A stretch of DNA of 32,283 nucleotides, from NCBI GenBank assembly GCA_014240065.1, contig JAAZXR010000004.1, positions 97,910 through 130,192 on the forward strand. Direction: 5' to 3'. The stretch's first letter is position 1; the number at the start of each line of letters is the position of its first letter. Both the position numbers and the translations under genes were made by a program. Below, piece by piece: positions 17,330 to 23,109 of the stretch. The stretch is from Myxococcales bacterium. GTDB lineage: Bacteria > Myxococcota_A > Polyangia > Nannocystales > Nannocystaceae. Below the pieces are notes generated by a model. The model was not told the origin of the DNA and ran no database searches. It saw only the letters and a program-made list of their open reading frames with translations.

Positions 17330-17713
17330 GTGGAACACGAGCGACGCAACAACTCCCGCCTGGCCTACGAGGTGGCCGCACGGCTGTTTCGCGACGGCGC
17401 CCCCGCGACCAGCCCAGGGGTGAAAGTCCGCACGATCGACCTCGCGATGTCCGGCGTGTGCCTCGAGAGCCCCGAACCCGTCGCCGTGGGCGAGAGCTTC
17501 GATCTCGAGCTCAGCCTCGAGCGCGGAGACATGAGCAGCGAGCCCCTCCGGTTGAGCGCGCGCGCGGTGTGGGGCACCGCCGTGGCGGGTGGCGTACAAG
17601 TGGGCGCCGCCTTTCATAAAGACCTTCCCGCCTTGGCCCTCACGAGGCTCGACGTCCTCCTCAAGTTTGTGCGCGGGGAGCTGTCTTTGCCCGGCGCGAC
17701 TTCGGGTCGCTGA
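17330..17713 (+). CDS. PilZ domain protein
   Basis: 127 residues of a single PilZ domain, which binds cyclic di-GMP. The N-terminal 'ERRNNSR' (residues 4-10) matches the RxxxR ligand motif, and 'TIDLAMSGVCLE' (36-47) matches the D/NxSxxG motif, here D-L-A-M-S-G. Both motifs are close to canonical, so binding is plausible. The pattern 'LRLSARAVWGTAVAGGVQVGAAF' gives the later beta strands with the conserved V-G-F-type end. The start is a GTG at 17330 with GCGAG just upstream. As the last gene of a group of exported proteins it may link them to c-di-GMP control of the surface (inference). Confidence 0.9.
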   Translation: MEHERRNNSRLAYEVAARLFRDGAPATSPGVKVRTIDLAMSGVCLESPEPVAVGESFDLELSLERGDMSSEPLRLSARAVWGTAVAGGVQVGAAFHKDLPALALTRLDVLLKFVRGELSLPGATSGR

Positions 17714-20371: not shown

Positions 20372-20375
<4 letters not shown>

Positions 20376-20809
20376 CCACGCTCGTCACAATCATTTTCTT
20401 CCTCGTCAGCACCATGATGATCCTCGCGATTTTAATGCAGGCCGGGAAGGGCGGCGGCATGGGGAGCGCCCTCGGTGGCGGCGCGAGCCAGAGCGTCTTC
20501 GGCGGCGGCGGCGGCGCCGACGTCATGGCAAAGATCACCCAAGGCCTGGCCACCGCGTTTATGGTGTGTGCCATTTACCTGGCCTACGCGGGGTCCCACA
20601 GCGGATCCGAGTTCCTCAAGGATCAAAGCCAGGCGTGGGAGGATGAGACCAAACTCGTGGAGGAGGACGGTGAGGTCAACTACGAACGCGTCGCTCCATC
20701 GGGCAATACAAAGCTCGCCCTCCCGAGCAAAGAACGCGCGGCGGTCATGCGCGCGGAGGCGGCCGCGGCCGCGCCCGCGTCGACCCCTCTCCCGAGCGCT
20801 CCAGGCTGA
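20372..20809 (+). CDS. secG: Preprotein translocase subunit SecG
   Basis: An inner-membrane accessory subunit of the SecYEG channel. 145 residues, with two membrane segments (about 3-22 and 52-70) around the conserved Gly-rich 'GKGGGMGSALGGGASQSVFGG' loop. The core is standard; the C-terminal ~70 residues are an extra charged then Ala/Pro-rich tail, longer than in most SecG proteins, with no domain I can name. Linkage of secG to tpiA is common in bacteria. The gene is followed by a 282-base gap holding a terminator. Confidence 0.95.
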
Positions 20810-20977
20810 CCGCCACACCCGCGCAGGGCGGACCATCCGTCGATCCACCGCGCGCCTCACGGGGATCGGAGATCCCTCGGCGCCGCGCGACCCTCGGCCG
20901 CGTCCGGCTGCCGTCGCGCGCCGTTGTCCCCGCGCTTTCTCAACCGTCGCCGCGCGTTCACCGCGAACACGGTTTTC

Positions 20978-21011
20978 AGCCCCAAGAGGGGCTAAAAAGC
21001 GCCTCTTTTTT
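20978..21011 (+). terminator. Terminator after secG with a competing hairpin
   Basis: AAGAGGGGCT (20984-20993) pairs with AGCGCCTCTT (20998-21007) over an AAAA loop with one mismatch, followed by TTTT: a good intrinsic terminator. A second, mutually exclusive hairpin, AGCCCC (20978-20983) with GGGGCT (20988-20993) over AAGA, would consume the terminator's left arm. It ends the pgk-tpiA-secG transcript or acts on the following regulator gene. Confidence 0.75.
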
Positions 21012-21091
21012 CACGATTTGTGGTGCCGTAGGCCAACCTAGTGACTCACGAGCTCCGATGGGCCCATTTTGGGCTCGACGAGAGAGCTATT

Positions 21092-22150
21092 ATGACCTCC
21101 AGCACGGCGAATCCACCGATGACCACCCAAGCACGCAGCTCCCACCAACTCGCCATGATCGAATTCCACACCGCAGGCCAGACCGGCGCGGGGGGGATCG
21201 AGCGCTGGCTTGAAGGCTCGTCGCAACCGATCGAGCGCCTCCGCGTCCACGCGCTCCAACTCAGCGGCGAGACCTCCCCGCTGATCGTGGTGGAGGGAGA
21301 GCCCGGATCCGGGAAGCTGCGCGTGGCTCAGTTCTTACACCGCGCGTCGTCTCGCACCGCGAGCACGCTGATGGTCCTCGACGCCGCCGACCCTTCGGTC
21401 GACGCCCAGATCAAATCGGTGATCGCCCAGATGCGCTCCAACACAGCGGCGTCCGCGGGCACGCTCGCCGTCCGCAACTTTCACTTGGCGGAGCCCGCCG
21501 CCGTCCAGAGCCTGCTCGAGCTCGTCACCTTGCAAGGAGACGGGAAGGAGCTTTGTACGATCCTCCTGACGCCGGAGCCGATGTCCAGACTCCGCGCCCG
21601 AAATCTGCAATCTGGGCAATTGCTCGGGCGCGCCACCCGGCACGTCCTTCGAATGCCCGCGATGCGAGAGCGCCTCGGCGACCTCGCACTGCTCGCGCGA
21701 CGCTTCATGGACGAGGCCCTGTCTCGCTACGGTCGACGCGTGCGCGGCATCTCTCCGCAGGCCATCGCGCACCTCGAGAAGTACGATTACCCAGGGAATA
21801 TCCACGAGCTCCGCACCATCATCGAGCAGGCGGTCATTCGCTGCCAAGGCGACTGGATCACCATCGAGCACCTCGGCGGGCTCGAGACCAAACAACAAGT
21901 GGATCAACCCGAGAGTTCGGAGCTCGTCATTCGACTCCCCGGCTCCTCCCTCCGCGAAATCGAAATCGCCGCGCTCAAGCTCGCGCTCAAAATCTCCGGC
22001 GGACGAGTCGTCCGCGCCGCGGAGCTCCTGGGCATCACCCGACACGCGCTGCGCAGGAAGCTTGAGAAGTTTGGGCTCAACGAGCTCCGCGTTCGCTACG
22101 ACAACAGCGACAACGTCTCGGACTTGGATCCGGGCCCGCTGAAGGGATAG
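21092..22150 (+). CDS. NtrC-like regulator with degenerate AAA+ domain and Fis-type HTH
   Basis: 352 residues from the ATG at 21092, which has GAGAGAG upstream; a GTG at 21041 is an alternative. The C-terminal half is clearly NtrC-family: 'YDYPGNIHELRTIIEQAVI' (231-249) matches the YxWPGNVRELxN motif, and 'GGRVVRAAELLGITRHALRRKLEKFGL' (303-329) is a Fis-type DNA-binding helix-turn-helix. The AAA+ part is degraded. Walker A reads 'GEPGSGK' (69-75) and is acceptable, but the GAFTGA loop that contacts sigma-54 is absent, and the Walker B acidic pair is gone ('GTLAVRNFHLAEP' where GTLFLDEI is expected). It is therefore unlikely to activate sigma-54 transcription; it may be a repressor or a DNA-binding switch. 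No receiver or FHA domain is present in the N-terminal ~60 residues. Confidence 0.88.
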   Translation: MTSSTANPPMTTQARSSHQLAMIEFHTAGQTGAGGIERWLEGSSQPIERLRVHALQLSGETSPLIVVEGEPGSGKLRVAQFLHRASSRTASTLMVLDAADPSVDAQIKSVIAQMRSNTAASAGTLAVRNFHLAEPAAVQSLLELVTLQGDGKELCTILLTPEPMSRLRARNLQSGQLLGRATRHVLRMPAMRERLGDLALLARRFMDEALSRYGRRVRGISPQAIAHLEKYDYPGNIHELRTIIEQAVIRCQGDWITIEHLGGLETKQQVDQPESSELVIRLPGSSLREIEIAALKLALKISGGRVVRAAELLGITRHALRRKLEKFGLNELRVRYDNSDNVSDLDPGPLKG

Positions 22151-22221: not shown

Positions 22222-23109
22222 GTGACGGCAGTGACCGCTCCGCCCACGCGCAGGTTCTCCAAAGTCGAAGGGCTCGGGAACGATTTTATCCTCCTCGATC
22301 TCCGCGCGGATCCGCCGGAGTCGCTCCCGCGCACCCTGCGACGTCTCAAAGACGCCGCCCCCGCCTGGTGCGATCGCCGGACCGGCGTGGGCGCCGACGG
22401 CGTCCTGGTGATCACCCCCGATCCCGACGCGAGCGCCGGGATGATCGTGTTCAACGCCGACGGCAGCCGCCCCGAGATGTGTGGCAACGGCCTGCGATGC
22501 GCGGCCGCCCACGTCGCCGGAGCCTGGTCGTCTGCGGCGAACGCTCCGTCCGTCGCGGAGGTCGTCATCTCCACCGACGCGGGCCCCCGCGCCTGCCTGC
22601 TCTCGGATCATGACGCGCAGAATCGATCCATCCTCGTCGACGTCGACATGGCGCCGGCCACCCTCTCGGACCTCATCGAGGTCGCCAGCGCTCCTGGGCG
22701 CCCCTTGCGGCGCGTGTCCATGGGCAACCCACACGCCGTGCACTTCACCGCTGAGACCGAAGACCCGGAAGCCCTGGCGCGCAGCCTCGGCCCACGAATA
22801 GAACGCGACCCTGCCTTCGCCGCCGGCGCCAACGTGGAGTTTGTCCGGCGCGAGCGCGATGACCTGTTCGTTGTGTGGGTGTGGGAGCGCGGCTGCGGCA
22901 TCACGCGCGCCTGCGGGACCGGAGCCTGCGCGGTCGCGGCCGCCGCGGTCGCGGCTGACCTCGCGGCCTGCGACCGCCCGCTCACGATGCGACTCCCCGG
23001 AGGTGACCTCCGCGTCACCGTGCCCGAAGGCCCTGGTGAGGGGCTGCGCATGTGTGGACCGGCGCGCCTCGTCTTTGAAGGCGAAGCGCCCGTCCTCCCG
23101 CAGGCGTGA
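22222..23109 (+). CDS. dapF: Diaminopimelate epimerase
   Basis: Converts LL- to meso-diaminopimelate for lysine and peptidoglycan. 295 residues from the GTG at 22222; a GTG at 22231 is also possible. Both catalytic cysteines are present: Cys87 in 'EMCGNGLRCAA' and Cys231 in 'ACGTGAC'. 'FSKVEGLGNDFILLDL' at the N-terminus and 'MGNPHAVHF' match the family. Slightly longer than the typical ~275 residues because of a short insertion after 'HVAGAWSSA'. It stands 71 bases after the regulator and ends 3 bases from the convergent ruvB. Confidence 0.97.
   Translation: MTAVTAPPTRRFSKVEGLGNDFILLDLRADPPESLPRTLRRLKDAAPAWCDRRTGVGADGVLVITPDPDASAGMIVFNADGSRPEMCGNGLRCAAAHVAGAWSSAANAPSVAEVVISTDAGPRACLLSDHDAQNRSILVDVDMAPATLSDLIEVASAPGRPLRRVSMGNPHAVHFTAETEDPEALARSLGPRIERDPAFAAGANVEFVRRERDDLFVVWVWERGCGITRACGTGACAVAAAAVAADLAACDRPLTMRLPGGDLRVTVPEGPGEGLRMCGPARLVFEGEAPVLPQA

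Follow-up and report, generated by a model that had tools for sequence, protein, structure and literature searches.

Enhancer-binding proteins are textbook ATP-driven activators, and a relative that lacks both the GAFTGA motif and the Walker B acidic pair raises the question of what it does, and of whether it is a working regulator or a dying copy. We examined such a gene, here called X, in a stretch of 32,283 nucleotides from a Myxococcales bacterium (the window; all coordinates are positions within it). The family was assigned from named matches, which include Enhygromyxa salina, Plesiocystis pacifica SIR-1, and MAGs such as Myxococcales bacterium FL481; E. salina and P. pacifica belong to the Nannocystaceae, Myxococcota. 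An initial annotation, made from the letters alone, had placed X between secG and dapF, and Pfam confirmed both neighbours. The gene and its surroundings are laid out as follows.

20372..20809, plus strand: secG, the upstream neighbour of X (Pfam).
21092..22150, plus strand, stop codon included: gene X, encoding a 352-residue stand-alone pseudo-enhancer-binding protein with an AAA+ core, a lid, and a Fis-type HTH.
21665..21907, plus strand: AAA+ lid domain (PF25601) with a YPGN motif (Pfam and alignment).
21947..22072, plus strand: Fis-type HTH (PF02954), the most conserved part of X, with a dN/dS of 0.12 in the closest ortholog pair (residues 281-335).
22222..23109, plus strand: dapF, the downstream neighbour (Pfam), 71 nt after X.

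The reading frame of X is open, and a longer reading is possible from a GTG at 21041 (21041-22150, plus strand, 369 residues). X and its FL481 ortholog have a conserved 16-nt block in common, which starts 33 nt 5' of the ATG in the window and 38 nt 5' of the ATG in FL481; since the block thus lies in different frames relative to the ATG, the comparison favours the ATG at 21092 as the start. Pfam matches to X at E ≤ 0.01 were AAA_lid_14 (PF25601, 75.6 bits), HTH_8 (PF02954, 40.0 bits), and Sigma54_activ_2 (PF14532, 36.1 bits); Sigma54_activat barely passes (20.9 against a cutoff of 20.2), and its match is fragmentary, covering profile positions 4-60 of 168. The N-terminal tail is about 37 residues long, and at the same threshold no sensory domain was found in X, in agreement with the initial annotation, which had named receiver, GAF, and FHA domains as absent. 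The Fis-type HTH and the lid motif are both present, as also claimed, although the motif described as WPGN-like reads YPGN. All seven X proteins scanned carry PF25601 and PF02954, and none has a receiver match among Pfam families at E ≤ 0.01. The sigma-54 interaction domain scores above cutoff in all seven at that threshold, the figures for score and cutoff being those of the first of the seven only. Domain matches alone (sigma-54 interaction domain, Fis family) mislabel genes of this kind.

An AlphaFold2 model of X (mc32c0790dd8a, built from a 7-row alignment) has a mean pLDDT of 73.7 and a pTM of 0.61, with residues 1-34, 266-279, and 338-352 below pLDDT 50. Comparison by Foldseek and VIA-align gave Z scores of 20 to 22 against NtrC1, ZraR, and PspF. 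Individual chains aligned as follows: NtrC1 (1ny5_A), Z 21.7, rmsd 2.5, 224 residues; VpsR (7v2b_A), Z 20.9, rmsd 2.6, 219 residues; Brucella NtrX (5m7n), Z 20.6, rmsd 2.8, 223 residues; and PspF (2c96), Z 20.4, rmsd 3.2, 219 residues. The predicted structure shows an NtrC-family AAA+ fold, and with the top matches tied or nearly so (within Z 1) it singles out no closest relative. Profile alignment to PDB chains left the residue pairing of the motifs unchanged; they lie on the sequence of X as follows.

21296..21316, plus strand: Walker A, GEPGSGK, residues 69-75; GxxGxGK in 8/8 genomes having the region.
21380..21382, plus strand: Asp97, at the "switch" position of PspF N64; aspartate in 8/8 genomes having the region.
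21383..21457, plus strand: segment from which the sigma-54-contacting L1 loop (GAFTGA) is excised (alignment).
21473..21478, plus strand: Arg128-Asn129, replacing the Walker B Asp-Glu pair (PspF D107-E108; alignment).
21569..21571, plus strand: Thr160, at the sensor I position; threonine or serine in 10/10 X rows, duplicates included.
21629..21631, plus strand: Arg180, equivalent to the PspF arginine finger R168; kept in 7/7 aligned orthologs and all 10 X rows.

The Walker A motif is intact, as had been stated, and the predicted absence of GAFTGA is explained by excision of the L1 loop and extends to all eight genomes in which the motif region is readable. The span from the N64 equivalent to the Walker B aspartate (D107) measures 31 residues in X; of the 16 further activator-like proteins aligned from this genome, 11 have 43 (17 proteins above 100 bits, X included), and the loss at L1 amounts to 12 residues. 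We rejected the idea that X is a canonical activator whose GAFTGA survives in cryptic form, since the loop has been cut out and not mutated. A second shortening precedes sensor I, where X has 31 residues against 40 (39 in one) in 11 canonical activators, nine fewer. At Walker B, GTLFLDE has become GTLAVRN (residues 123-129, nt 21458-21478). The claim that the acidic residues are missing is borne out for this copy, with Arg-Asn in their place, and must be softened for three orthologs that keep one lone acid, a Glu in G010 and an Asp in G019 and G011. The R162-equivalent arginine finger is serine in X and non-arginine in 6/6 X rows. The sensor II position is His238 in X; five of the 10 X rows still have arginine there, so the residue has not been lost throughout. 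Judged against what characterises sigma-54-dependent bacterial enhancer-binding proteins (bEBPs), X has Walker A and the AAA+ fold with an NtrC-type lid, and has neither GAFTGA nor the Walker B Asp-Glu pair; two traits of GAFTGA-less bEBP paralogs, an L1/GAFTGA loss conserved in orthologs and a Fis HTH, are both found in it. From these residues, X has in all likelihood lost ATP hydrolysis.

The initial annotation had named orthologs keeping GAFTGA and Walker B as the sign of simple decay. A single-sequence search of 59 genomes (the source genome and 58 relatives) separated X orthologs, at E values of 5.7e-38 or better, from the best ordinary activator at 3.1e-26; only one X sequence fell outside this range, the N-terminal half of the copy that is split in G011 (2.9e-22), and it was recognised by its position beside secG. 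Orthologs occur in 9 of 29 family genomes, the source genome counted, and in five genera. The G018 copy is a C-terminal fragment and that of G011 is split over two contigs, and the motif region is readable in eight of the nine genomes. All eight lack both motifs: the first Walker B position is never Asp (Arg in four; Thr, Cys, Ala, and Glu once each) and the second never Glu (Asn in six, Asp in two). The P-loop lysine is kept in 8/8, and the P-loop glycines and lysine together with D97 are invariant among the orthologs. Searches with an X profile of 317 class genomes and 377 sampled phylum genomes, with the best five to six candidates per genome scored, yielded 153 bits as the highest score outside the X copies, which range from 177 to 568. 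Two other matches in the 317 class genomes passed E 1e-42, at 153 and 150 bits, one in G105 and one in G192; the G105 protein was rejected as X, being a receiver-bearing activator with GAFTDA and a Walker B DE. In a tree with 10 GAFTGA activators the X proteins form one clade on a long branch (support 100).

These data bear directly on the reading that X is a redundant activator whose motifs were lost neutrally and which is retained for now. Faster divergence of the AAA core than of the HTH would fit it, as would the lack of an X match in 20/29 family genomes, several of which are incomplete. The frame, however, is open and the same losses recur in orthologs down to 37 to 39% identity, the P-loop glycines, the lysine, and D97 do not vary, and in the closest pair (G022/G015) NG86 dN/dS is 0.31 for the whole gene, 0.43 for the AAA core, 0.23 for the lid, and 0.12 for the HTH. 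The closest pair is thus under purifying selection, strongest in the HTH; dN/dS was computed for six pairs, and the distant ones (values up to about 1, in lid or AAA core) were set aside because dS was near-saturated or uncertain. Simple decay was rejected on the losses common to orthologs and on dN/dS, and we regard the decaying-copy reading as a whole as highly improbable. Because counterparts in seven related bacteria share the losses, X is probably a stable, repurposed DNA-binding regulator and not a dying copy. The proposal that an enhancer-binding protein had turned into a non-sigma-54 regulator finds support here, in losses shared by 8/8 genomes and purifying selection in the closest pair.

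In a rival account X would be a dominant partner that co-assembles with one of the genome's canonical activators into mixed rings, lends the kept R168-type finger to a neighbour's site while itself incapable of hydrolysis or sigma-54 contact, and so tunes or blocks sigma-54 activation. Retention of the finger throughout the X rows, selection on the AAA core and lid in the closest pair, and the presence of canonical activators in the genome all speak for it. It is nonetheless the HTH, and not the AAA interface, that is by far the most conserved, and a search for further activator-like ORFs (E ≤ 1e-8, 100 residues or longer) in the window and in nine ortholog stretches of 4 to 20 kb found none; an unlinked partner may still exist. 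Mixed rings are in our judgement a decidedly unlikely account, and we return to X as a repurposed regulator.

Loss of both functions at once is not confined to X. Among 117 distinct non-X relatives (127 non-X rows less eight X-fragment rows and two duplicate segments; drawn by searches with X, the X profile, and neighbouring loci, and so biased to X-like proteins), 17 lack Asp first and Glu second at Walker B, some with a lone Asp second, and none of these 17 has a GAFTGA-like motif either. They comprise eight Corallococcus/Myxococcaceae loci, three from Nannocystis, four from genus g12, and one each from Planctomycetota and Polyangia. Within the source genome, two of the 17 activator-like proteins besides X, L227 and L228, have neither GAFTGA nor the DE pair. 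L228 (G000:C179:27500-31000) is a stand-alone 306-residue frame with a GKSGTGK P-loop, no GAFTGA, SN at Walker B, and an N64-to-D107 span of 18 residues, 27.5% identical to X over 269 residues. L227 (G000:C98) is a longer NtrC-like regulator with AD for DE, no GAFTGA, and, by eye, a receiver-like N terminus. Since 17 of 117 relatives and two more genes of the genome show related losses, joint loss of sigma-54 coupling and of the ATPase acids recurs in the phylum, and X is not unique. What distinguishes X is its conservation, its stand-alone form, an inverted switch pair, and its fixed place after secG. Small, stand-alone, hydrolysis-defective by sequence, and with orthologs down to 37% identity, it would offer a clean test of what an AAA+ module does in the absence of hydrolysis or sigma-54 contact. 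The eight Corallococcus/Myxococcaceae loci (L111, L114, L115, L116, L121, L124, L126, and L127, from Corallococcus and a Myxococcaceae MAG) make up a separate conserved enhancer-binding-like group with Glu at the N64 position, RH for the Walker B DE, and no GAFTGA. A further longer NtrC-like regulator of the source genome, L225 (G000:C155), likewise has a damaged ATPase site, its Walker A being GEPGTGR, Lys to Arg, with DE kept.

In PspF, according to an excerpt of PMC4132715, the Walker B residue E108 pairs with N64 and couples nucleotide state to L1. The X proteins have Asp at the N64 position in 8/8 genomes and Asn at the E108 position in 6/8, with Asp there in two genomes of genus g11, so that the pair reads D/N in six of eight. 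Asn at the second Walker B position occurs in none of the 117 non-X relatives, and Asp at the N64 position in seven, all with an intact DE; L228, in the same genome, has Asn at the second position, preceded by Ser. Because D/N is near-fixed in orthologs of 37 to 51% identity, the alignment favours a kept polar pair over drift in a dead site.

Whether X has left the sigma-54 system was weighed against its genome and its known relatives. The source genome has a sigma-54 match (PF04552, 217.9 bits) and canonical GAFTGA activators, so the loss in X does not follow from loss of sigma-54. Against sigma-54 independence stands the Pfam sigma-54 interaction domain, still above cutoff in 7/7. VpsR, Brucella NtrX, and the NtrC proteins of Rhodobacter capsulatus and Caulobacter have receivers, TyrR, DhaR, and HupR carry N-terminal sensor domains where X has only its short tail, and PspF has a Fis HTH. 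Receivers being absent from all seven X proteins by Pfam, X falls outside the VpsR family proper. VpsR of Vibrio cholerae (PDB 7v2b), which binds c-di-GMP according to the PDB title, resembles X in its bEBP fold, lack of GAFTGA, and non-canonical Walker B (GTLLLND in the aligned chain); unlike stand-alone X, with D and N, it carries N where PspF has N64 and D where PspF has E108. Brucella NtrX (5m7n) shares the fold and, in the aligned chain, the lack of GAFTGA, and differs in keeping the Walker B DE. Among NCBIfam models, DhaR is one of those overlapping X most widely (residues 63-348 of the 369-residue reading), at 79.8 bits against a cutoff of 551.

The excerpt of PMC10274813 that deals with these proteins describes an L1 deletion covering GAFTGA, which X shares, and sigma-70-type promoters for the NtrC proteins of R. 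capsulatus and Caulobacter. The R. capsulatus protein acts via sigma-70 and there ATP binding, not hydrolysis, is essential; Caulobacter NtrC needs the Walker B Asp, whereas X is without the D-E pair. The same excerpt mentions aspartyl phosphorylation for NtrC of this kind, and has VpsR (printed as VspR) regulating sigma-70 promoters with no requirement for ATP. TyrR, DhaR, and HupR appear in part of PMC3162934 as GAFTGA-defective, sigma-70-dependent bEBP paralogs outside the sigma-54 system, and in that departure they are like X. PspF, which an excerpt of PMC7057263 describes as having no cis-regulatory domain, offers the same AAA+ plus Fis HTH plan; it differs from X in its GAFTGA motif, its Walker B pair D107-E108, its two arginine fingers, and its N64-E108 switch (PMC4132715, in part; R168 from the PDB title of 2bjv). 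By analogy, X would be a regulator of the type of VpsR, TyrR, or R. capsulatus NtrC, and possibly binds nucleotide. Titles and abstract openings in the literature yielded nothing on the X family.

On balance we think it likely that X is a conserved NtrC-type offshoot, no longer coupled to sigma-54 and very probably unable to hydrolyse ATP, that acts at a sigma-70-type promoter by binding, the likeliest site being its own promoter. By sequence and analogy we infer independence from sigma-54. X would bind DNA through the Fis HTH in dimeric or higher oligomeric form; if the kept P-loop binds nucleotide, the nucleotide would set oligomerisation and not power remodelling; and the promoter would be controlled by binding, with no remodelling of a sigma-54 holoenzyme. 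The weakest step is the site, most likely the promoter in the secG-X gap, from which X might also affect dapF where that gene lies co-directionally downstream. Two features of the gap are relevant.

20984..21011, plus strand: terminator-like hairpin (one stem mismatch) and T run after secG, found by folding and absent from the consensus-scan list.
21059..21074, plus strand: TGGGCCCATTTTGGGC, with the inverted repeat GCCCA-TTT-TGGGC, common to the FL481 ortholog upstream region; the exact pattern occurs once per genome.

Downstream of the terminator-like hairpin, X in the window and its FL481 ortholog are preceded by a common 25-nt stretch, 21/25 identical (BLAST E 0.002), which ends in TGGGCCCATTTYGGGC and contains the inverted repeat. 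The 16-nt core has one exact match in G000 and one in G002, both at X. At up to two mismatches, matches against a reversed-pattern control number 6 to 2 in G000 and 9 to 9 in G002; with inexact matches in G002 no more frequent than in the control, only the exact match is informative. The Enhygromyxa/Plesiocystis trio (G022, G015, and G007) has a different upstream block; a 30-nt pattern taken from it was found once per genome, at X, and was absent from four other X genomes at up to three mismatches. On their sequence, these blocks are conserved candidate promoter or operator elements, private to X, that differ between subgroups. The remark in the initial annotation that X has no obvious target is thus only partly right, as private conserved elements just 5' of X make its own promoter a candidate. 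A conserved upstream element may be a mere promoter, and the elements differ between subgroups; a consensus scan of the plus strand near X returned no sigma-70-type promoter. No shared dyad was detected in seven X upstream regions at the set thresholds (arms of 4, 5, and 6 bp gave 4, 3, and 2 of 7, and shuffles almost none), and the lack of a dyad common to most of them, despite an almost unchanging HTH, speaks against a single autoregulatory site shared by all.

That result would suit a sigma-54-independent regulator of a distant regulon, for which the secG-dapF position has no regulatory meaning; TyrR and VpsR, for example, are regulators of this kind whose targets lie apart from the genes that encode them. 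The private elements upstream of X and its linkage to secG, which it directly follows in 8/8 testable genomes, tell against this reading, which we hold possible and rather on the unlikely side. Action of X at its own promoter remains our preferred reading. In the 51-nt fold of the gap, an overlapping upstream hairpin beats the terminator-like one, and hairpins after secG were also seen by eye in FL481, SWB005, SWB007, and SIR-1. Window positions 20976-21011 can form two mutually exclusive hairpins, AGCCCC/GGGGCT and AAGAGG/CCTCTT, before the T run; the pair could be an attenuator or two overlapping terminators.

How X came to lie there can be traced in part. X precedes dapF in 7/9 genomes; in G019 and G011 other ORFs come after X and dapF is found on a different contig, so dapF is no obligate partner. 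Where X is missing and a single contig carries both secG and dapF (14 family genomes), the gap between the two genes is about -24 to +16 nt (secG stop to dapF start, the latter extrapolated from the window protein). Of 26 dapF loci read from other families of the class, 12 have secG immediately 5' of dapF, and tblastn found X at none of the 26. As secG and dapF roughly abut without X, and secG stands 5' of dapF in other families, the secG-dapF neighbourhood is older than X, and insertion of X there is the simplest account. A midpoint-rooted tree of concatenated TpiA and DapF from 21 genomes scatters the genomes with X over three positions, at poorly supported nodes (43, 65, and 74), and groups G002 with G011/G019 (97), where the X tree groups G002 with G000 (73); the history was either one gain followed by losses or transfer into the same site. 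A bolder version, which we consider improbable, would make X an AAA+ sensor-regulator that works without hydrolysis through an inverted glutamate switch: its polar Asp/Asn pair would read bound nucleotide and determine how the Fis HTH oligomerises, with no power stroke. Having arrived together with a promoter of its own and a terminator for secG, X would have split a pgk-tpiA-secG-dapF run and placed dapF, which serves the supply of cell-wall and lysine precursors, on a separate transcript under self-regulation.

Several neighbours have features of their own. SecG proteins here have long C-terminal tails, the protein measuring 145 residues in the window (20372-20809) and 269 in G002 (L039 10289-11098), with a SecG domain of about 70 residues. 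In G002 a pgk-like gene beside tpiA (L039 11877-13070, minus strand) is 31% identical to the window pgk, compared with 57 to 61% at other orthologous loci; the gene, partly masked as N, is possibly a diverged or degenerate paralog. Upstream of pgk in the window, positions 17330-17713 encode a small PilZ-domain protein of 127 residues (36.2 bits).
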